A stretch of DNA of 37,142 bases. Origin: Alphaproteobacteria bacterium. Lineage in GTDB: Bacteria > Pseudomonadota > Alphaproteobacteria > UBA2966. The stretch spans positions 1-37,142 of the forward strand of contig JASLXG010000186.1 of NCBI GenBank assembly GCA_030740435.1, given 5' to 3'. The position numbers were made by a program, and so were the translations under genes. Below, piece by piece: positions 18,396 through 35,405 of this stretch; the first letter of the stretch is position 1; the number at the start of each line of letters is the position of its first letter. The notes beneath the pieces were generated by a model. The model saw only the letters and a program-made list of their open reading frames with translations. It searched no databases and had not been told where the DNA came from.

Positions 18396-20741
18396 TTAGA
18401 TCCGTAGCGCCGATAGATCCGGGGCCGGCGCCGCGTCATCCGTGGGCCGGGCCGGCTTGACAGCCAGGCGGAGCTCGACGAGTTCCTCGTTCTGGCGCTC
18501 GGCCAGCGTTAGCGCCTGGTCGCGGCCGGCGCTGTATTGCTCGGGCCAGGGCTGGTCGGCCTGGCCGTAATGGGCCGCGGCGCGCAGCGTGAAGTAGGGA
18601 TCGGACAAGTGTGGCCGGGCCAGGACGCAGAGATCGGCGCGGCCGGCCGCGATGATGGTGTTGACCTGGTCGGCGCTGGTGATGTTGCCCACCGCGATGG
18701 TGGGAATGCCGGCTTCCAGGCGGATGCGTTCGGCGAATTGGGTCTGGAACATGCGGCCGTAGACGGGTTTGGCCCGGGTCGAGGTCTGGCCCGCCGAGAC
18801 GTCGATGATGTCGCAACCCAGTGCCTTGAGCCCGCGCGCCAGCTCGACCGCTTCGGCCGCCTCGAAACCCTCGCCGGGTACCCAGTCGGTGGCCGAGAGG
18901 CGCACGGATATGGGTTTCTGCCAGACTTCGCGCACAGCCTGGAAGACCTCGAGGGGGTAGCGCAGGCGGTTTTCCAGGATGCCGCCGTAGTCGTCGCCGC
19001 GCTGGTTGGAAAGCGGCGAGATGAAGCTCGAGAGCAGGTATCCGTGCGCCATGTGGACTTCGATCATGTCGAAGCCGGCTTCCTGGGCATAGCGCGCGGC
19101 ACGCACGAATTCGTGGCTTACCCGGCCCATGTCTTGGCGGTCCATCTGGCGCGGCACTTGGCTATGGGGGAACCAGGGCAGCGGCGAGGCCGATATGATC
19201 GGCCAGGAGCCTTCGTCCAGCGGTTCGTTGTCGCCTTCCCAGATCAGTTTGGTCGCCGCCTTTTGTCCGGCGTGGCCCAGTTGCAGGCAGATCTTGGCGG
19301 CTGAGCTGGCGTGCACGAAATCGACGATGCGAAGCCAGGCGTCGCACTGGGCTTGGTTGTAAATGCCGGTACAGCCGGGCGTGATGCGGCCCTGGGCCGA
19401 GACGCCGGTCATTTCGCTGAAGACCAGTCCGGCACCGCCGACGGCGCGGCTGCCCAGGTGCACCAGGTGCCAATCGCCGGGCAGACCGTCCCGGGCCGAA
19501 TACTGGCACATGGGCGAGACCACGACGCGGTTTGCCAGCACCAGGTCGCCAAGCCGGAAGGGCGTGAACATGGGCGGCGGATTACCTGCCAGGGGCAGGC
19601 CTTTCTTTCTCACGTCCTCGGCGAACCAGGCGTCGATGCCGGCGATGTAGTCCGGGTCGCGCAGCCTGAGATTCTCGTAGGTCACGCGCTTGGAGCGGCT
19701 GAGCAGACTGAAGGCGAACTGTTCGGGCTCGAGGCCGTGGTAGCGTTCGGTGTCCTCGAACCAGATCAGGCTGGTCTCGGCGGTGCGTTGCAGCCTGGCC
19801 ACTTCGTCCTGGCGGCCGCCCTGGTAGGCGGCCAGGGCGTCGGCCACGTCCGGGGTGGCTTGCAAGGCCTCGTGCAGCGCGATGGCGTCCTCCATGGCGA
19901 GCTTGGTGCCCGAGCCGATGGAGAAATGCGCCGTGTGCAGGGCATCGCCCAGCAGCACCACGTTGCCATCATACCAGCGCTCGTTGCGCACCGTCGGGAA
20001 GGTGCGCCAGAGCGAGCGGTTGGCGACCAACTCGTGGCCCTCGAGGTGGGCGGCGAAAAGCTTCTGGCAATAGGCCAACGTGTCGCTCTCTGCCGCCTGG
20101 TCGAGGCCGGCGCGGCGCCAGGTCTCCTCCGTGCACTCGACGATAAAGGTGCTGGTCTCGGCCTCGAACTGGTAGGCGTGGACGCGGAAGAGGCCGTGCT
20201 GGTTTTGCTCGAAGATGAAAGTGAAGGCCTCCAGCGGCAAGCTGGTGCCGAGCCAGACGAACTTGTTCCGCCGCCAGTCCAGGCTGGTGCCGAAGGCCTC
20301 TGGGCGGGCGTCGCGAAGGGCGCTGTTGATGCCGTCGGCGGCCAGGATCAGATCGCTGTCGGCAAAGCCCGAGGGGTCAATGATCTCGTGTTCAAAATGC
20401 AGCGCACAGCCCGCGGCTTGGGCATGGTGTTGCAGAATCTGCAACAGCTTGCGCCGCGACATGCCGCAGAATCCGTGGCCGCCCGAGCGCACAACCCGGC
20501 CGCCAAGGCGCACGTCGATCTCGTGCCAATAGGCGAAGCTGTCGACGATCTCGCGGTGGCTGGCGCGGTCATAATCGAGAAAGCCCGACAAGGTCTCGTC
20601 GGAGAACACCACGCCGAAGCCGAAGGTGTCGTCGGGCCGGTTGCGCTCATAGATGTCGATCTGGCGGTCCGGCTCGGCCTTTTTGGCCAGCAGCCCGAAG
20701 TAAAGCCCGGCGGGGCCGCCGCCGACGATGCTGATCTTCAT
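18396..20741 (-). CDS. Bifunctional salicylyl-CoA 5-hydroxylase / 2-aminobenzoyl-CoA monooxygenase-reductase
   Basis: A 781-residue two-domain flavoprotein. The start is the ATG at 20741, giving the FAD motif [20 protein letters not shown]; a longer upstream frame is not needed. Residues 1-400 are an FAD monooxygenase ([22 protein letters not shown] is the second FAD motif). Residues about 410-780 are an old-yellow-enzyme NADH:flavin oxidoreductase ([43 protein letters not shown]). This exact fusion is known as 2-aminobenzoyl-CoA monooxygenase/reductase (anthranilate breakdown in Azoarcus) and as salicylyl-CoA 5-hydroxylase. It hydroxylates and then partly reduces the ring of an aryl-CoA. No aryl-CoA ligase or ring-cleavage genes are adjacent; the ligase at 11835 is not of the benzoate type by its motifs. 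Confidence 0.85.
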
Positions 20742-20817
20742 GATGCGCTTCCGGGAAAGAGGAATTTGCGCAATTATGGTAGGTCTAAAGCGCCCGGAAA
20801 CAAGCGGAAGCGGCGAA

Positions 20818-21306
20818 ATGGCAGGGGTCAGCAGGACCATGCGGGGCGCCCTGGCCGGTGTGCCGGAGGGCGCCGGGGCCTATGCCCTGGTGCTGGACTT
20901 GCGCGCTCCCAGGCGGCTGCCCCAGCGCCTGGCGCCGCAACCGCTGGCGCCGGGGCCTTACCTTTACGCCGGCAGCGCCCGGGGGCCGGGTGGCCCGCGA
21001 GCCCGCCTGGCGCGGCACCTCAGGCGCCAGAAGCCGCGGCACTGGCACCTCGATTGGCTGACCGGGGCGCCGCCCGCGCTGGTCCGATTCTATGGTTTCG
21101 CGGCCTTCGCGGCGGCCGGCGAATGCGACGTCGTGGACTGGCTGACGGCCCGCGGCGCGACGCAGGTTCCGGGTTTCGGAGCCAGCGACTGCCGCCGTTG
21201 CCAGGGCCACTTGCTGGCTCTTTCAAGGGCGCCGGGGCTCGGCGAGTTGGCCGAAGCACTAGCGGGAACCCTGATCTGGAGCCGGGATATCCCAAGGATA
21301 CGTTAA
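20818..21306 (+). CDS. DUF123 (GIY-YIG-like) domain protein
   Basis: A 162-residue protein matching the DUF123 family. It has [46 protein letters not shown] and a Cys-containing end ([15 protein letters not shown]). The AYA and YAGSA spacing corresponds to the GIY-YIG nuclease core. Biochemical function is unknown; archaeal and bacterial members stand alone or are fused to endonuclease III. Two ATG starts are possible, 20818 and 20839; the latter has an AGGA about 5 bases upstream and leaves the domain intact. The gene is divergent from the two-domain flavoprotein and lies just before the Flp pilin. Confidence 0.7.
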
Positions 21307-27301: not shown

Positions 27302-27437
27302 AGTATAATAGGCAATCCCACCAGGTTTGTAAAGCCCCGCCGTTTCCGGTTTCCTTCGCCGCCCTGGTGTGCCAACGTTGAAGAGGAAAAAAGGCCCCCG
27401 TGGGGCCCGGCGGGGGGCCACAGAGCGGGAGAGAAAA

Positions 27438-29258
27438 ATGGCCAAGGACATCGTGAGAATAGGCGGCGCCGCCGGTTTCTGGGGCGACACCAACGCGGCC
27501 CCGGTGCAACTGGTGGAGGGCGGCAAGCTCGACTACGTGGTTTTCGACTACCTGGCCGAGGTCACCATGTCGATCCTGGCCCGGGCCAAGGCGAAGAACG
27601 CGGACGCCGGCTACGCTATCGACTTCATCCAGTACGTCATGCCGGCCATCGTCAGGCCGGTGGCGGAACAGGGCATCCGCGTCATTGCCAACGCCGGCGG
27701 CATGAATTCCCAGGCCTGCGCCGAGGCCGTGCGCAAGATCGCCGCCGAGGCCGGCGTCAGCCTCAAGGTAGCGGTGGTGCTGGGCGACGATTTGATGCCG
27801 AGACTCGACGAGGTCCGGGCGCTCGGGCCCACCGAGTGGGCCAGCGGCGAGGCGTTGCCGGAAAAACTCGCCAGCATGAACGCCTATCTTGGTGCCTTCT
27901 CCATCGCCGAAGCCCTGGCCGATGGCGCCGACGTGGTGATCACCGGCCGCGTCGTCGACAGTGCCGTGACGCTGGCGGCCTTGATCCACGAATTCGACTG
28001 GCAGGTGGACGATTACGACCTGCTGGCGGCCGGCAGTCTCTGTGGCCACATTCTCGAATGCGGAACCCAGGCCACCGGCGGCAACCACACCGACTGGCAG
28101 CTCGTGCCGGGCTGGGACGACATGGGCTATCCCATCGCGGAATGCAAAGCCGACGGCTCCTTCGTGCTGAGCAAGGTGGACGGCACCGGCGGCCTGATCA
28201 CGCCGGGCACGGTGGGCGAGCAGATGCTCTACGAGATCGGCGACCCGCGGGCCTACCTCTTGCCCGACGTCTCCTGTGATTTTACCGCCGTCACCATGAC
28301 CCAGGCCGGAGAAAACCGGGTGGCGGTGAGTGGTGCCCGTGGACGGCCGCCGAGCGCCACCTACAAGGTCTCGGCCACCTACATGGACGGCTTTCGCTGC
28401 GCCACCTCGGTAATGCTGGGCGGCCGCGACGCCGCCGCCAAGGCGCGGCGCACGGGCGAAGCCATCTTCGAGCGCACGCGGCGCATGTTCCGCGAACGCA
28501 ATCTCGGTGATTATCGCGAAACCCGCATCGAGACCTTCGGCGCCGAAGAGATGTACGGCGCCCAGACCCGCGCCGGCGCAGCCCGCGAGATCGTGCTCAA
28601 GGTCTCGGCGAGGCACGACCAGAAGGAGGCGCTGGATCTCTATTCGCTGGAAATCGCCCAGGCGGCGCTGGGCGCGGCGCCCGGCATCAGCGTTTTCCAG
28701 CCCGGCCGGGCGCGTCCCCAGCCGGTGATCCGGCTGTTTTCCTTCCTCATCGACAAGGCCGCCGTGCCGGTCGAGGTCGACGTCGAGGGCGAAAGCCGGC
28801 CCAGCGAGCTGGCGACGGACGGCGGATTCGATCCGGCCAGCCTGCCCGACCAGACTCCGGCTCTTCCCGAATCGGATCCCGAGGATCCGGTCACCGTGCC
28901 GCTGATCGCGCTGGCTTATGGCCGCAGCGGCGACAAGGGCAACCATGCCAACATCGGCCTGGTGGCCCGGGATCCTGAGTTCCTGCCCTGGATCAACCGG
29001 GCCGTCACCGAGGCGGCGGTGGCGGAATATTTCGAGCACTATCTCGAGGGCAACGTGGTGCGCTACCAGCTGCCCGGCATCCATGGCCTCAATTTCATGC
29101 TGCTGGATGCGCTTGGCGGCGGCGGCATCGCCTCGTTGCGCACCGACCCGCAGGGCAAGGCCTACGCCCAGATGCTGCTGGATTTGCCGGTCAGCGTGCC
29201 ACGGGCGCTGGCCGAGGCCCATGAGTTGCCGCAAGAGGAGGCCCAGGACGCGGCGTGA
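27438..29258 (+). CDS. DUF1446 / acyclic terpene utilization AtuA-like protein
   Basis: A 606-residue protein with the AtuA layout. Residues about 5-450 are the DUF1446 domain: IVRIGGAAGFWGDTNAAPVQ at the start, then GDAD-like ADGADVVITGRVVDSAV, GNHTDWQL and KVDGTGGLITPGTV. About 480-595 is the C-terminal AtuA-like ferredoxin-fold domain (LAYGRSGDKGNHANIGLVAR). The start is the ATG at 27438 with GGGAGAG in front. In Pseudomonas atuA belongs to citronellol/geraniol breakdown, but the biochemical role of the protein is not established. Divergent TetR, hydratase and SDR genes recall the atu locus. The geranyl-CoA carboxylase subunits and an acyl-CoA dehydrogenase are absent here, so a terpene role is uncertain. 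Confidence 0.82.
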   Translation: MAKDIVRIGGAAGFWGDTNAAPVQLVEGGKLDYVVFDYLAEVTMSILARAKAKNADAGYAIDFIQYVMPAIVRPVAEQGIRVIANAGGMNSQACAEAVRKIAAEAGVSLKVAVVLGDDLMPRLDEVRALGPTEWASGEALPEKLASMNAYLGAFSIAEALADGADVVITGRVVDSAVTLAALIHEFDWQVDDYDLLAAGSLCGHILECGTQATGGNHTDWQLVPGWDDMGYPIAECKADGSFVLSKVDGTGGLITPGTVGEQMLYEIGDPRAYLLPDVSCDFTAVTMTQAGENRVAVSGARGRPPSATYKVSATYMDGFRCATSVMLGGRDAAAKARRTGEAIFERTRRMFRERNLGDYRETRIETFGAEEMYGAQTRAGAAREIVLKVSARHDQKEALDLYSLEIAQAALGAAPGISVFQPGRARPQPVIRLFSFLIDKAAVPVEVDVEGESRPSELATDGGFDPASLPDQTPALPESDPEDPVTVPLIALAYGRSGDKGNHANIGLVARDPEFLPWINRAVTEAAVAEYFEHYLEGNVVRYQLPGIHGLNFMLLDALGGGGIASLRTDPQGKAYAQMLLDLPVSVPRALAEAHELPQEEAQDAA

Positions 29259-29869
29259 GCGATCCGGTCGTCGAGCGGCGTGAGCACTGGCAGGGGGTCT
29301 ACGCCGGCAAGGAAGTCGACCAGGTGGGCTGGCACCAGACCGAGCTCACGGTTTCGCTGGAACTGATCGGGCAAGCCGGCCTGGCCGCCGGGGCGGCGGT
29401 GATCGACGTCGGTGGCGGCGCCTCGACCTTGGCCGACAGCCTGCACGGCTTGGGCTACGCCGTCACCGTGCTCGATACCACGGCGGCGGCCATCGAGGCC
29501 GGCCGGGCGCGGCTGGGAGACCAGGTCAACTGGCTGCAAGCCGACGTCACGACCTGGCGGCCTGACACCGAATTCGATCTCTGGCACGACCGCGGGGTCT
29601 TTCATTTTCTCACCAAGGCGGCCGAGCGCGCCGCTTACCTCACGACTCTCGGCGCGGCCCTGAAGCCGGGCGGCCACATCGTCGTCGGCACCTTCGCCAT
29701 GGACGGCCCGGAACGCTGCTCCGGCCTGCCCGTGGTGCGCTACGACGCCGCCCGCATGGGCCGCGAGCTGGGCCCCGGGTACGCCTTGCGGGCCGAGGCC
29801 TTCGACGATCACGTCACGCCTGGCGGCATGGTCCAGCGCTTCTGGTTCGGGCTATTCCGTAGGGTTTGA
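29255..29869 (+). CDS. Class I SAM-dependent methyltransferase
   Basis: A 204-residue methyltransferase beginning at the GTG at 29255, which overlaps the stop of the DUF1446 gene by 4 bases (GTGA). Its SAM-binding motif I is AAVIDVGGGASTLADSL; motif II ends in VTVLDTTAAAI; WLQADVTTWRP and DLWHDRGVFHFL follow. The N-terminal HWQGVYAGKEVDQVGWHQ is characteristic of a thiol/thiopurine-like methyltransferase subgroup. The substrate is unknown. Translational coupling to the DUF1446 gene suggests that the two proteins act together. It converges on the first radical SAM gene with a 7-base gap. Confidence 0.8.
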   Translation: MSDPVVERREHWQGVYAGKEVDQVGWHQTELTVSLELIGQAGLAAGAAVIDVGGGASTLADSLHGLGYAVTVLDTTAAAIEAGRARLGDQVNWLQADVTTWRPDTEFDLWHDRGVFHFLTKAAERAAYLTTLGAALKPGGHIVVGTFAMDGPERCSGLPVVRYDAARMGRELGPGYALRAEAFDDHVTPGGMVQRFWFGLFRRV

Positions 29870-29876
29870 ACGTCCC

Positions 29877-30800
29877 TCAGATGCTGCCGCCCGAGATCGG
29901 CAGGTGGCCGAGATCCCCCTGGGCCAGATGGTGGGCCTGATTGAAGACCATGTAGGCGCCACAGCGCTCGCAGTCGACGTCGTTGCCGTAGCAGCAAAAG
30001 GTGCGCTCGAAACTGCCTTCGTCGCCCATGTATAGCGGCAGCACGTTACGCAACAGGCACTTTTCGCCATTCTCGCCGATTGATTCCATGCAGATGTCCG
30101 ACATCATCATCTCGAGGGTTTCGATGTTCGATTTGATGAGGTTGGGGTGCTTTCGCTTGAGCGCCATCAGGCGCTCGACAACGCGGTCGCGTTCCTTGAG
30201 ATCCCGCCAAAAAAGCGGGCTCTCGTCGTTCCGGGTGGGCACGTAGAAAGTAAAGGCGAGACCTGTGACGGGCCAGTCCTTGACCTGTTCGACGAAGTCC
30301 TCGAGGTGGGCCTCGTTCTGCCGCGTCAGCACCATCTGCAGCATCACCGAGGTGCCGTCGCCGAGCTCGCGGTCATGGATGGCGTCTTTGACCTTTTGGA
30401 AAACGCCTTCGCCGCGGATGGCGTCGTTGGGCTCTTCCGGCCCGTCCAGCGACACCGTCACCAGATGCCCGGGCACCGAGGGAATGCCATAGGTGCCGTT
30501 GGTGACGATGGAGCACTGCTCGAAGAGCTCCATGGCTTCGAAAACCAGGTCCTTGCGGATCATCGGCTCGCCGCCCATGAAGAGCATCGACTTGATGCCG
30601 TGCTTGTCCCGGAGCTGGCGCAACTGGTGCAGCATGTTGGCGTCGTCCATCTTGTCGCGCGGCGAGTTGGGATTGTCGTCGCGGTAGACGAAGCAATGGC
30701 TGCAATCGAGATTGCAGGCGTTGGTGACCAGAACCAGCGCCGCCGGAAAGCTGCGCTCGCCAAAATCGGTCGGGTTCTTGAGCTCGTTCTTGGCACCCAT
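29877..30800 (-). CDS. Radical SAM protein with C-terminal SPASM-like cysteines (copy A)
   Basis: A 307-residue radical SAM enzyme, started at the ATG at 30800. The [4Fe-4S]-SAM motif C-x3-C-x2-C is CNLDCSHC (Cys29, Cys33, Cys36). LFMGGEPMIRKD is the GGE motif, and VSLDGPEEPNDAIRG follows. The last 60 residues have further cysteines (EKCLLRN, then FCCYGNDVDCERCGAYMVF) suited to an auxiliary Fe-S cluster of SPASM or related type. The protein ends GHLPISGGSI. Copy B at 31339 is about three-quarters identical by eye, and a MarR gene lies between them. No small precursor peptide gene was seen, so a small-molecule substrate is as likely as a peptide. Function is unknown. Upstream is the MarR operator region. 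Confidence 0.82.
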   Translation of the reverse strand: MGAKNELKNPTDFGERSFPAALVLVTNACNLDCSHCFVYRDDNPNSPRDKMDDANMLHQLRQLRDKHGIKSMLFMGGEPMIRKDLVFEAMELFEQCSIVTNGTYGIPSVPGHLVTVSLDGPEEPNDAIRGEGVFQKVKDAIHDRELGDGTSVMLQMVLTRQNEAHLEDFVEQVKDWPVTGLAFTFYVPTRNDESPLFWRDLKERDRVVERLMALKRKHPNLIKSNIETLEMMMSDICMESIGENGEKCLLRNVLPLYMGDEGSFERTFCCYGNDVDCERCGAYMVFNQAHHLAQGDLGHLPISGGSI

Positions 30801-30860
30801 GTCGGCCTCCCTCCCTGTGCAGCCCGCGGCGATTGAGAACGTTGGGCCGGTGTGACAGTA

Positions 30861-30882
30861 TATATCTCGTTTCCGAGATATA
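30861..30882. promoter_or_regulatory. MarR operator candidate 1 (perfect palindrome)
   Basis: TATATCTCG, four bases (TTTC), then CGAGATATA: 9-bp perfect arms. It lies 20 bases before the MarR start and 61 bases before the radical SAM A start, in the shared intergenic region, so it could govern both divergent genes. MarR proteins typically bind palindromes of this size. Confidence 0.7.
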
Positions 30883-30894
30883 CTCAAGGAAAGA

Positions 30895-30910
30895 ATTTCG
30901 TATGCGAGAT
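30895..30910. promoter_or_regulatory. MarR operator candidate 2, overlapping the MarR start codon
   Basis: ATTTCG-TATG-CGAGAT has the same arm-spacer-arm pattern as the core of site 1 (ATCTCG-TTTC-CGAGAT), with one mismatch in the left arm. The spacer contains the ATG start codon (30902-30904). The centres of the two sites are 31 bases apart, three helical turns, which places them on the same DNA face. Confidence 0.6.
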
Positions 30911-31342
30911 AATCCCCTGCGGGCGCGCTTCGAGGACTCGGCCGCCAACGAGTTGGGCCGGGTCTTCCGCCACCTCAACCGCAGCTTTGGCGAGGCCCTC
31001 AAGGGCCATGGCCTGTCGGCCCTGCAGGCCAACATGCTGATGGAACTGTGGCTCCAGGGGCCGCTCTCGGTAGGCGCCCTGCAGCGCCACATGTCGCTGG
31101 CCTCGTCGAGCCTCAGCGGTGCGCTGGACCGCATGGAGCGGGCCGGACTGGTGCGCCGCGTGCCCTCGCCCGAAGATCGCCGCTCGTTCGTCATCGAACC
31201 GGCGGATTGGCACGGCGATCAGAAACAGGCGGTGATGCAAACGCTGGTCGACACCGAGGATGAATTCTTGGCGCCCTTGAGCCCTTTGGAGCGTCGGCAG
31301 CTGCTCGGTTTGCTGCGCAAGATCAGCACCCCGGAGGCCTAG
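30902..31342 (+). CDS. MarR-family transcriptional regulator
   Basis: A 146-residue winged-helix regulator starting at the ATG at 30902 (MRDNPLRARFEDSAANELGR). Its core has LSALQANMLMELWLQGPLSVGAL, QRHMSLASSSLSGALDRMERAGLVRRVPSPEDRRSFVI, which is the recognition helix and beta wing in the standard MarR order. It stands alone between two radical SAM paralogues and may control the divergent copy A directly. Two operator-like palindromes overlap its promoter and start codon, so it probably represses itself. Many MarR proteins respond to aromatic or acyl-CoA ligands. Its TAG stop and the stop of radical SAM B share the bases CTAG. Confidence 0.87.
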   Translation: MRDNPLRARFEDSAANELGRVFRHLNRSFGEALKGHGLSALQANMLMELWLQGPLSVGALQRHMSLASSSLSGALDRMERAGLVRRVPSPEDRRSFVIEPADWHGDQKQAVMQTLVDTEDEFLAPLSPLERRQLLGLLRKISTPEA

Positions 31343-32274
31343 ATACTGCCGCCCGAGATGGGAAAATGCCCGCTGTTGCCCCGGGCCAAATGGAAGGCCT
31401 GGTTGAAGACCATGTAGGCGCCGCAGCGCCCGCAATCGACGTCGTTGCCGTAGCAGCAAAAGGTGCGTTCGAAACTGCCCGCGTCACCCATGTATAGCGG
31501 CAGCGTCTTGCGCAATTCGCAGTTTTCGCCGTTCTCGCCGATGGTCTCCTGGCAGACCTCCGACAGCATCAGTTCGAGCGCCTCGACGTGGCTTTTGATC
31601 AGGCCGGGATAGCGGCGTTTGAGGGCTATGAGACGCTCGACCACGGGGTCGCGATCGGCGAGGTCCCGCCAGACCAACGGCCCGTGGTCGTCACGGGCAG
31701 GCACATAGAAGGTAAGTGCGAGGCCCGAGATGGGCCAGTCCTTGAGCTCCTCGACGAAGTCCTCGAGGTGGGATTCGTTTTGCCGCGTCAGCACCATCTG
31801 CACGATCACCGAGGTGCTGTCGGCCGCATCGCGGCCATGAATGGCCTCTTTGACCTTTTCGAACACGCCCTCGCCGCGGATGGCGTCGTTGGGGCGCTTT
31901 GGCCCATCCAGCGAGACCACCACCGTGTGCCCCGGCACGCTTGGAATGCCATAGGTGCCGTTGGTGACGATGGTGCTTTTGTCGAACAGCTTCATCCCCT
32001 CGAGCACCAGATCACGGCGGATCATCGGCTCGCCGCCCACGAACAGCATCGATTTGATGGCGTGCTTGTCCCTGAGCAGGCGCAACTGGTGCAGCATGTT
32101 GGCCTCGTCCATCTTGTCGCGCGGCGAGTTGGGGTTGTCGTCGCGGAAGACGAAGCAGTGGCTGCATTCCAGATTGCAGGCGTTGGTGACCAGGACCTGC
32201 GCTTCGACGTAGCTTTCCGGGCCGAAGTCGGTCGGCTCCCTGAGTTCGCGCTCCACCCTGGCCTTGGCCGTCAT
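31339..32274 (-). CDS. Radical SAM protein with C-terminal SPASM-like cysteines (copy B)
   Basis: A 311-residue paralogue of the radical SAM protein at 29877. The ATG at 32274 gives MTAKARVERELREPTDFG. The SAM-cluster motif is CNLECSHC, the GGE motif is FVGGEPMIRRD, and the C-terminal cysteines (FCCYGNDVDCGRCGAYMVF) and the tail GHFPISGGSI match copy A. Identity is about 75 percent by eye, including long identical runs, so the pair arose by duplication. It follows the 3-hydroxyacyl-CoA dehydrogenase gene by 23 bases and is the last gene of the mutase operon, which ties the radical SAM pair to that pathway. Whether the copies work as a heterodimer or one after the other cannot be told. Confidence 0.82.
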   Translation of the reverse strand: MTAKARVERELREPTDFGPESYVEAQVLVTNACNLECSHCFVFRDDNPNSPRDKMDEANMLHQLRLLRDKHAIKSMLFVGGEPMIRRDLVLEGMKLFDKSTIVTNGTYGIPSVPGHTVVVSLDGPKRPNDAIRGEGVFEKVKEAIHGRDAADSTSVIVQMVLTRQNESHLEDFVEELKDWPISGLALTFYVPARDDHGPLVWRDLADRDPVVERLIALKRRYPGLIKSHVEALELMLSEVCQETIGENGENCELRKTLPLYMGDAGSFERTFCCYGNDVDCGRCGAYMVFNQAFHLARGNSGHFPISGGSI

Positions 32275-32297: not shown

Positions 32298-33233
32298 CTA
32301 GCCCTTCTTCTTCTTTTCCGGCTTGGGCGGCCGCTCGGCGCCGAGGAATTCGTACCAGCCGCCCTTGGAATCGGGCTTGAACTTGGGATCGCCCTTGTAG
32401 CCGGCCAGGATCACCTTGCGGGCCAGCGCCGGCACGGCGTAGCGCTCGCCCAGCGTCTCGAAAAGATAGCTCTGGGCCTGCACGAAGCTGTCGAAGCTGG
32501 CGGTGTCGTCCAAGAGCTCGAAAACGCCCATGGGCCAACCCAGGCCGGTCTTGACCATCTCGTCGATCTCGGCCGGGCCGGCGACGCCGAGTTCGACCAG
32601 GCGGATGGCCTCGGCGACATAGAGGTTGATGAAACGCGTCATGAAGAAGCCCGGCGAATCCTTGACCACCACCGGTTTCTTGCCGATGGCGGCGAGGTAC
32701 CCGACCACCTTATCCAGTTCGGCCTGGCCGGTGAGCTCGCTACGCCCCACCTCGACCAGCGGCAAGATGTTGGAGGGATAGAACCAGTGCGTGCCCACCA
32801 GGCGGCTGGTGTTATCCATCTTGGCGGCCAGCTCGGAGATCATGATGGAAGACGTGTTGGAGGCGAAGACGGCGTCGCTGGCAACGTGTTTTTCCGCCTC
32901 ACAGAGCGCATCCTGCTTGACGTCGACGATCTCGGGAATGGATTCGAAGACCAAATCGGCGCCGGCCAAGCCCTTGGCGTAGTCGGTGCTGCCCGCGACC
33001 CGGCCCATGATCTCGGTGGCCTGATCCTCCGTGATCTTGCCGCGTTTTACGCCCTTTTGCAGGCCGAAAGGGCCCTTCTCGATGAGCTCCATGCCGAGGT
33101 CGATGCTGGCCTGCTTGCGCGAGACCAGGGTGACACGAACGGCGCTGGCCTGCAGGCAGGCCAGCGCAATGCCGTGGCCCATCAGGCCGCCGCCGCCGAG
33201 GATGGCGACGTGTTTGAATGCGTCCGCGCTCAT
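32298..33233 (-). CDS. 3-hydroxyacyl-CoA dehydrogenase
   Basis: A 311-residue single-domain-pair 3HCDH. The start is the ATG at 33233, which overlaps the B12-subunit stop (ATGA). The NAD-binding motif is VAILGGGGLMGHGIALACLQA near residue 9. The catalytic His is in GTHWFYPSNILPLVEV, with the Glu expected in this segment, and SNTSSIMISELA precedes it. The C-terminal domain (GLGWPMGVFELLDDTASFDSF) fits the family. The tail is very lysine-rich (PPKPEKKKKG). It oxidises the 3-hydroxyl of an acyl-CoA with NAD+. In this operon it probably acts on the product of the mutase, as the dehydrogenase does after 2-hydroxyisobutyryl-CoA mutase. Confidence 0.85.
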   Translation of the reverse strand: MSADAFKHVAILGGGGLMGHGIALACLQASAVRVTLVSRKQASIDLGMELIEKGPFGLQKGVKRGKITEDQATEIMGRVAGSTDYAKGLAGADLVFESIPEIVDVKQDALCEAEKHVASDAVFASNTSSIMISELAAKMDNTSRLVGTHWFYPSNILPLVEVGRSELTGQAELDKVVGYLAAIGKKPVVVKDSPGFFMTRFINLYVAEAIRLVELGVAGPAEIDEMVKTGLGWPMGVFELLDDTASFDSFVQAQSYLFETLGERYAVPALARKVILAGYKGDPKFKPDSKGGWYEFLGAERPPKPEKKKKG

Positions 33234-33640
33234 GCTGCGTCCTCCTTTGCCCGGCCAAGGTTTTCCTGGATCAGCTCGATGGCCGATTCGGCGCTGGTGC
33301 CGGGACCGAAGATGGCGGCGACGCCCCATTCCTTGAGCTGCACTTCGTCGTCGGCCGGGATGACGCCGCCGGCCAGCAAGAGCACCTCGCCGAGGCCGAT
33401 CTCCTCGAGGCCGGCGACGAGCTCCTCGAAGACCGGCATATGGCCGCCCGACGAGCTCGAGACGCCGATCACGTTGACGTCCTCTTCCAGCGCCGTGGCG
33501 ACGATCTCGGGGGCCAGCAGGAAGTTGGTGAAGATGACCTCGAAACCGGCGTCGCGAAACTTCTTGGCGACATAGCGGATACCGCGGTCGTGGCTGTCCA
33601 TGGCGGGTTTGGCCAGCAGTACGCGTACGGGTTCGCTCAT
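33230..33640 (-). CDS. B12-binding subunit of an acyl-CoA mutase
   Basis: A 136-residue cobalamin-binding domain of the methylmalonyl-CoA mutase family. The DxHxxG motif is DSHDRG (residues 15-20), whose His replaces the lower axial ligand of cobalamin. VSSSSGG and LLAGGVIPADD complete the nucleotide-tail pocket. The start is the ATG at 33640; longer frames on this strand are noise. It lies 14 bases after the large subunit. A separate small B12 subunit is known for isobutyryl-CoA and 2-hydroxyisobutyryl-CoA mutases, unlike the fused form in methylmalonyl-CoA mutase. Confidence 0.88.
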   Translation of the reverse strand: MSEPVRVLLAKPAMDSHDRGIRYVAKKFRDAGFEVIFTNFLLAPEIVATALEEDVNVIGVSSSSGGHMPVFEELVAGLEEIGLGEVLLLAGGVIPADDEVQLKEWGVAAIFGPGTSAESAIELIQENLGRAKEDAA

Positions 33641-33654
33641 GGTGATTCCTCCGC

Positions 33655-35385
33655 CTAATACTCGTGCGGTGCGTTCCAGCCCAGCGCGTCTTTCATGACC
33701 TTCATCATTTCGCCGTTGGTGGCGTCGGCCCGCGAGGCCTCGATGGCGGTCTCGATGATGTCGCCCCGGCCCAGATCCTTGATCTCGCTTTCGGCAAAGG
33801 CGGCCATGGCCTTCTCGAAGGCCGCCATGGCCTTTTTGTGGCGCTTCTGATCGCGGCTTTGGCGCAATTCGTCGAGGCGCTCGAGGGTCACGCGCTCGAC
33901 CTCGGGATCGATCTTGAATAGGTCCTGCTGGTTCGACTCTTCCTCGGTCTGGTAGCAATTGAGGCCGACGACGCGGCGGCTGCCCTGGTTGATCATCTCG
34001 CGCCAGCGCTCGGCCGAGGCCTCTATCTGGCGGCGGATCCAGCCGTTGCGCTGGGCCTCGACGTAGCCGCCCTGGGCTTCGATCTCGTCGACCATCTCGA
34101 GCGCCGCGTTGGCGATCTGGTCGGTCAGCGCCTCGACGTAGTAGGAGCCGGCCAGGGGATCGGAGACCGAGGTGATGTTGGTCTCCTCCTGGATCACCTG
34201 TTGAACGCGCAGCGCCAGAGTTGCCGAATCCTCGGTGGGAATGGCGAAGGCCTCGTCGTAGGACGAAACCTCCATGGCCTGGACGCCCGACATGGCGGCG
34301 CCGAAGGCGTGCAGCGTGGTGCGCACAAGATTGACCAAGGGCTGCTGGGCCGTCAGCGCCGAGCCGGCGGTGTGGGTGTGGATGCGCACGTGCATGCCGC
34401 GCGGGTCCTTGGCGCCGAAGCGTTCCTGCATGGTCGAGGCCCAGATGCGCCTGAGCGCCCGGATCTTGCAGACCTCCTCGAAGAAGTCGTTGGACTGGGC
34501 GATCTGGAAGCCGATGCGCAGCAGCGCCTGGTCGGCATCGAGGCCCGATTCGACGCAAGCCCGCACCAGGTCGATGCCGTAGGCCAGCATCAGCGCGATC
34601 TCGTGCACGGCGTTGCCGCCAGCCTCCTCGATGCCGTAGCCGAAGAGGTTGGTGGTGTTCCAGCGCGGCATGTTCCTGGAACAGTAATGAATGAGCTCGA
34701 CGGCCAGCTTGAGGCCCTGGGCGGGAGGGAACGTACTCATGCCGGTGTAGGCCGACTGGTGGTACCAGTTCATCGAGTTGCCGCGCAGATCGCCGGGGCC
34801 CAGGTCCCTTTCCTCGGCCAGCGCGATGTACTGCGCCAGCGCCGGAATCACCTGAAAGTAGGTGATGTGGATGACGTTCATCTTGGTCAGGTCCATGTCG
34901 GCAAACAGCGTCGCCATGTCGGCCTTGGTGTAGGTCGCCATGCCGCACTGGCCGATGCGGCCCCGGGCCCCGGGATGGTCGGGGTCGATGCCTTCATGGG
35001 AGACCAGGTCGTAGACCAGGTTGTAGAACTTCTGGCCGAAGTAGCCGATCATGCCTTGGGCCGAAAGGGCGTCCATGCGCTCGCGGGTGTGTTCCGGCAG
35101 GCCGTAGCCGATGACCGGCTGGTTGGCCCAGTGCATGAGTTGGTACTGGGCCGCCAGGTTGCCCCGCGTAAAGGGATACTGGCCCGGCGCCCCGATCTGG
35201 CTGAAATCGATACCCTCGACATCGTGGGGAAAGTAGGCCGTCTTGATGGGCAGGCCGGAATGGGTCTCCGGATTGCGCGCCCGGGCCGGTGCCTGGTTGC
35301 CGAACTTCTCGACCATCTTGGCGTAGGTCGCCTCGCGCTCTTCGCCCAGTTCCTGGGAAACCGCCAGGGTATCTTTGTCGAACAT
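33655..35385 (-). CDS. Divergent coenzyme-B12-dependent acyl-CoA mutase, large subunit
   Basis: A 576-residue mutase large subunit; the ATG at 35385 follows AGGAGGG. The CoA-binding TIM barrel can be aligned to methylmalonyl-CoA and 2-hydroxyisobutyryl-CoA mutases throughout, for example GQYPFTRG (68-75), FFEEVCKIRALRR, YDEAFAIPTEDSATLALR and DPLAGSYYVEALT. Three key positions differ. The RQ[Y/I]AGF motif is QPVIGYG (89-95). The substrate-choosing Arg/Gln position appears to be Thr214 (SAYTGMSTFPP). The active-site His of SGYH is Gly251 (FGYGIEEAGG). It is thus neither a typical methylmalonyl-, isobutyryl-, ethylmalonyl- nor hydroxyisobutyryl-CoA mutase. The B12 domain is a separate subunit next door. 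Dehydrogenase and thiolase neighbours suggest rearrangement of a CoA ester before oxidation and cleavage. Confidence 0.85.
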   Translation of the reverse strand: MFDKDTLAVSQELGEEREATYAKMVEKFGNQAPARARNPETHSGLPIKTAYFPHDVEGIDFSQIGAPGQYPFTRGNLAAQYQLMHWANQPVIGYGLPEHTRERMDALSAQGMIGYFGQKFYNLVYDLVSHEGIDPDHPGARGRIGQCGMATYTKADMATLFADMDLTKMNVIHITYFQVIPALAQYIALAEERDLGPGDLRGNSMNWYHQSAYTGMSTFPPAQGLKLAVELIHYCSRNMPRWNTTNLFGYGIEEAGGNAVHEIALMLAYGIDLVRACVESGLDADQALLRIGFQIAQSNDFFEEVCKIRALRRIWASTMQERFGAKDPRGMHVRIHTHTAGSALTAQQPLVNLVRTTLHAFGAAMSGVQAMEVSSYDEAFAIPTEDSATLALRVQQVIQEETNITSVSDPLAGSYYVEALTDQIANAALEMVDEIEAQGGYVEAQRNGWIRRQIEASAERWREMINQGSRRVVGLNCYQTEEESNQQDLFKIDPEVERVTLERLDELRQSRDQKRHKKAMAAFEKAMAAFAESEIKDLGRGDIIETAIEASRADATNGEMMKVMKDALGWNAPHEY

Positions 35386-35405
35386 CGCCACCCTCCTGTC
35401 GCTGT

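Follow-up and report, generated by a model that had tools for sequence, protein, structure and literature searches.

Two old radical SAM paralogues and a MarR-family regulator with paired palindromic boxes in an alphaproteobacterial genome

Two radical SAM genes, rSAM A and rSAM B, flank a MarR-family regulator gene on contig JASLXG010000186.1 of an alphaproteobacterial genome (GCA_030740435.1), of which a stretch of 37,142 nucleotides was analysed (the window). The feature is real and represents an uncharacterised family of a known enzyme kind in an informative regulatory arrangement. The account that we favour, and consider somewhat probable as a whole, is that A and B are old paralogues with one predicted auxiliary cluster, each acting alone on a small molecule, with A controlled by MarR through a pair of palindromic boxes and B expressed with a neighbouring mutase operon.

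Results

The locus and its two radical SAM genes

The features of the locus are as follows (positions in the window).

27369 to 29258, plus strand: AtuA-family protein, context only; an AtuA gene also adjoins the A-type gene of the sister species (locus L014)
29255 to 29869, plus strand: methyltransferase-like protein, convergent with A, context only
29877 to 30800, minus strand: rSAM A, 307 aa, with a short twitch-like cysteine domain predicted C-terminal to the radical SAM core; counterpart in L014
30863 to 30880, no strand: palindromic box 1, TATCTCGTTTCCGAGATA, without mismatches; candidate operator for MarR, between the divergent A and MarR genes
30894 to 30911, no strand: palindromic box 2, which has 2 mismatches and is spaced 31 nt from box 1
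30902 to 31342, plus strand: MarR-family regulator, divergent from A
31339 to 32274, minus strand: rSAM B, 311 aa, at the end of the mutase operon; grouped with L015 in the tree
32298 to 33236, minus strand: 3-hydroxyacyl-CoA dehydrogenase, upstream of B
33230 to 33658, minus strand: B12-binding small subunit of acyl-CoA mutase
33655 to 35400, minus strand: divergent large subunit of acyl-CoA mutase, nearest solved relative 2-hydroxyisobutyryl-CoA mutase

Gaps between these genes are short, with 7 nt between the methyltransferase-like gene and A, 101 nt between A and MarR and 23 nt between B and the dehydrogenase, while MarR and B overlap tail to tail by 4 nt. The A and B proteins align without gaps and are identical at 229 of 305 residues (75%), and their genes have 81% of their DNA sequence in common. 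Both match Pfam Radical_SAM (PF04055) above its cut-off and carry, within that domain, the CX3CX2C and GGE motifs of the superfamily. The CX3CX2C motif (C29-x3-C33-x2-C36 in A) is invariant across all 26 aligned family members, as are GGEP, present in both proteins, and five C-terminal cysteines (C248, C269, C270, C277 and C280 in A numbering). The initial annotation, made by eye, had described close paralogues of about 75% identity with a common C-x3-C-x2-C and C-terminal cysteine pattern, both on the minus strand with a MarR gene on the plus strand between them, and all of this is borne out, with exact coordinates. The common tail that it singled out, PISGGSI, is indeed the C-terminal end of both proteins; tails of this type are confined to a subclade of five of the 26 members compared, so the tail is less telling than it looks.

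Distribution of the family

No NCBIfam model came near its cut-off against A or B, and the C-terminal 127 residues (181-307) searched alone matched no model in that collection. The family is uncharacterised and, on these searches, without a curated model, and the match to a characterised family that the initial annotation had named as grounds for abandoning its reading did not appear at any curated cut-off. HpnH (TIGR03470), a candidate prompted by a C-terminal YG...CxxC seen by eye, was rejected: its model matched four other places in the same genome (E up to 0.001) and none of A, B or the third copy described below.

The family is rare: members were found in 7 of 385 genomes sampled from the class, and the window's own genome (G000) was the sole carrier among 398 sampled from the phylum. 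Further members come from the second genome of the genus (G001, a sister species), from several genomes belonging to one other family and from a single deltaproteobacterial MAG. Phages and viral contigs held no relatives, and plasmid relatives reached at best 28% identity, in Methanosphaera. Whether genomes carry one copy or two, a check proposed in the initial annotation, has no fixed answer: copy number ranges from one to four, with a single copy in 8 of 14 family genomes. The window genome has three, the third (G000:C116, 69%) lying elsewhere in the genome and missing from the initial annotation, and G001 has three counterparts.

Several other loci are recorded here as observations in their own right. 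In G756 two family members stand in tandem on the same strand, 12 nt apart (L058, 8319-9284 and 9300-10259). At the deltaproteobacterial locus (L012, 1315-16879) the family gene has a corrinoid-binding protein nearby; inspection by eye adds a UroD-like methyltransferase, a reductive-activator-like protein and a glycyl-radical-like enzyme. Two small conserved ORFs of ~126 aa and ~66 aa separate the third radical SAM copy from a flavin oxidoreductase gene (L013, 2862-3470; L016, 10165-10743); the shorter encodes a ribbon-like protein with four cysteines, a possible carrier or substrate.

Predicted structure and auxiliary cluster

An AlphaFold2 model (mean pLDDT 80.6, under 50 in the core cysteine loop) shows a partial barrel followed by a C-terminal two-strand hairpin and helix. 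The predicted hairpin spans residues 254-266, with C248 before it, C269 and C270 after it and C277 and C280 next. SPASM domains hold two auxiliary clusters and a seven-cysteine motif, CX9-15GX4C-gap-CX2CX5CX3C-gap-C, whereas the one-cluster twitch layout of BtrN and SkfB has cysteines before and after a hairpin and further cysteines beyond (PMC6231123). In the predicted structure the order of cysteines and hairpin resembles the twitch layout. A SPASM assignment was rejected, as only five C-terminal cysteines are invariant, GX6C stands in place of GX4C and CX5CX3C is missing. Since the layout is like that of twitch and unlike that of the seven-cysteine SPASM domain, the family is predicted to be of twitch type, with one auxiliary Fe-S cluster.

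History of the two copies

In G001 the counterparts of A and B lie on separate contigs with different neighbours. The A-type gene (L014) adjoins AtuA, as A does, and the B-type gene (L015) adjoins a MarR gene and the dehydrogenase-B12-mutase genes. L015 groups with B in the tree (support 97/90); the fork joining A and L014 (81/45) does not settle that grouping, and their putative orthology rests on AtuA synteny and identity. Tree and synteny together place the A/B split before the split of the two species of the genus. Synonymous divergence (dS) is 0.61 for A/L014 and 0.42 for B/L015, near the 0.42-0.52 of neighbouring genes, and dN/dS is 0.17 and 0.29 respectively, compared with about 0.09-0.13 for neighbouring genes and 0.41 for MarR. 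Because of these dS and dN/dS values, both genes are judged to be old, real and under purifying selection, with amino-acid change faster than in their neighbours. That one copy might be a collapsed assembly duplicate, as the initial annotation allowed, is contradicted by the independent sister-species genome, which carries both on separate contigs, and assembly duplication is unlikely. A member from a different family (L050, in G763) differs from L015 by a dS of only 0.26, below the gene divergence between the two sister species, which suggests transfer between lineages; a mis-binned contig in this 83%-complete MAG is a possible alternative.

The MarR gene and the palindromic boxes

The palindrome TATCTCGnnnnCGAGATA, absent from the initial annotation, is doubled at 31-nt spacing in the divergent region between A and MarR, where box 2 overlaps the MarR start codon (30902). 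The locus thus combines a MarR protein (Pfam MarR, PF01047, 57 bits) with a palindromic site in a common promoter region. When the sequence upstream of all family genes was scanned for TATCTCGnnnnCGAGATA, pairs at exactly 31 nt were present only upstream of A, L014, L015 and L050, and no other such pair occurred in the 385,600 bases of fetched loci. Sites with at most one mismatch number one in the whole window genome, at A/MarR, and four in G001, three of them at its two radical SAM promoters. A MarR orthologue is present only in these two of the 14 family genomes (G370 has a distant 31% match), and the one MarR gene of G001 would therefore serve two radical SAM promoters on different contigs. 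In L050 (5160-5276) a broken MarR remnant of 39 codons with an in-frame stop lies beside decayed boxes with 2 and 3 mismatches, a drift that is expected if the regulator has gone.

From this arrangement MarR would bind the boxes and probably represses A and its own gene. That MarR has so few sites suggests that its ligand is related to what A acts on. A strict sigma-70 scan at the boxes found no promoter, and exact box matches in 98 stretches of viral contigs were taken as chance. A search for literature on MarR with radical SAM and acyl-CoA found nothing.

rSAM B and the mutase operon

B has no palindromic box. It closes a B12-mutase/3-hydroxyacyl-CoA dehydrogenase operon that the initial annotation did not describe, and is probably co-transcribed with the dehydrogenase and mutase genes. 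The large subunit (33655-35400) is not assigned as 2-hydroxyisobutyryl-CoA mutase, as it has Val/Val at the positions aligned to Ile90 and Asp117, which we take to be the signature of that enzyme. It also has Gly where aligned mutases carry an active-site His (SGYH to FGYG). Elsewhere in the window (18396-20840, minus strand) a fused FAD monooxygenase and NADH:flavin oxidoreductase protein is encoded, of a kind seen in CoA-linked aromatic hydroxylation.

An acyl-CoA-type enzyme lies within two genes of the family member in at least 9 of the 15 loci examined. Across the family no gene is a constant partner, a tally of near against far neighbours that covered the top 25 families could not establish formal enrichment, and the acyl-CoA enzymes may be there because these genomes have many genes of that kind.

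Discussion

According to the favoured account, A and B probably each work alone, in monomeric or homodimeric form, and act on a small molecule. SAM would be cleaved by the CX3CX2C cluster, the resulting 5'-deoxyadenosyl radical would abstract a substrate hydrogen, and the auxiliary cluster would anchor the substrate or take the second electron. With a MarR dimer bound at each box, the A and MarR genes would be blocked until MarR is released by a ligand, perhaps the substrate of A or a related compound, while the box-less B would be expressed with the mutase operon, making the same kind of chemistry available whenever the operon is on. Small-molecule chemistry is the likeliest role, and an acyl compound as the substrate is a weaker guess. 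Distinct roles, offered in the initial annotation as a reason for keeping both copies, are plausible from the separate control of the two genes, and the old split and purifying selection agree with them.

The position of B raises the question of whether the enzymes belong to the mutase pathway, with B (and A) transforming a pathway intermediate or maintaining the mutase. The B gene follows the dehydrogenase by only 23 nt and in a second genome the B-type gene, L015, has the same surroundings, but the operon core (thiolase, mutase, B12 subunit and dehydrogenase) occurs without this radical SAM gene in three other genomes (G015, G021 and G197), and most family members have no mutase nearby. The mutase therefore does not need the radical SAM enzyme, its status as obligate partner is rejected by co-occurrence, and B resembles a passenger or accessory that was added, so this reading is possible, if unlikely. 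A role as peptide (RiPP) maturases with a precursor encoded elsewhere is improbable: the sactipeptide maturase SkfB ranks with the closest structures, but no precursor gene fits into the gaps and overlap of the locus, only ~20 residues precede the core, leaving no N-terminal peptide-binding domain as in SkfB, and the neighbours are not conserved. Both an adjacent precursor gene and a peptide-recognition domain are thus missing, which argues against peptide maturation, and the initial annotation was right to report no precursor nearby, the 101-nt gap between A and MarR holding the proposed operator.

The same annotation suggested a heterodimer of A and B, a suggestion that draws on two neighbouring, conserved paralogues on one strand and could also draw on the tandem pair in L058. 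It is unsupported, because copy number varies from one to four, many genomes having a single copy, and because the adjacency of A and B is not conserved, their counterparts lying on separate contigs in G001; the two genes are also under separate control, and we regard a heterodimer as very unlikely. Almost no credence is given to reading the locus as a form of the radical SAM mobile pair system, whose gene inventory is the same, with a MarR gene and two genes for radical SAM proteins. The MarR protein does match TIGR04472 weakly (29.9 bits against a cut-off of 240), but A and B, unlike the proteins of that system, are close paralogues, and the pair models TIGR04470 and TIGR04471 fail on both at E up to 1.

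The radical SAM superfamily has many uncharacterised members, and the family described here is rare, compact and highly conserved. As the predicted regulator sites are few, the MarR ligand could give a lead to the substrate. Were this an acyl compound, radical SAM chemistry would be extended into catabolism; the fuller version of this idea, an inducible class of radical SAM enzyme acting directly on acyl or CoA-linked compounds in catabolism with a MarR sensor almost solely for it, is rather unlikely.

Among solved structures BlsE (PDB 7vob), with Z 16.4 over 251 aligned residues, and SkfB, with Z 15.8, are tied as the closest. BlsE is a cytosylglucuronate decarboxylase, a radical SAM enzyme with a small-molecule substrate and perhaps two clusters, its C-terminal cysteines being the proposed ligands of the second (PMC3715490). 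It is the best full-length structural match and likewise has CX3CX2C and GGEP, but identity is 16%, its C-terminal cysteines are arranged as CxCxxC rather than C-x20-CC-x6-C-x2-C, and it comes from an antibiotic pathway in Streptomyces. By sequence, SkfB is the solved structure that matches best (family profile, E 1e-10), and like it and other SPASM/twitch enzymes A and B have a radical SAM core and, after it, a cysteine domain predicted to be of hairpin type, although they lack the N-terminal peptide-binding domain and the precursor gene and space their cysteines differently. In MarR-type divergent autoregulated promoters, the regulator and its target are read outwards from one promoter region that carries palindromic boxes. 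A and MarR likewise lie on a common region with such boxes, but here, unlike in MarR-type promoters generally, the boxes are paired at a fixed 31 nt and the sites are apparently very few.
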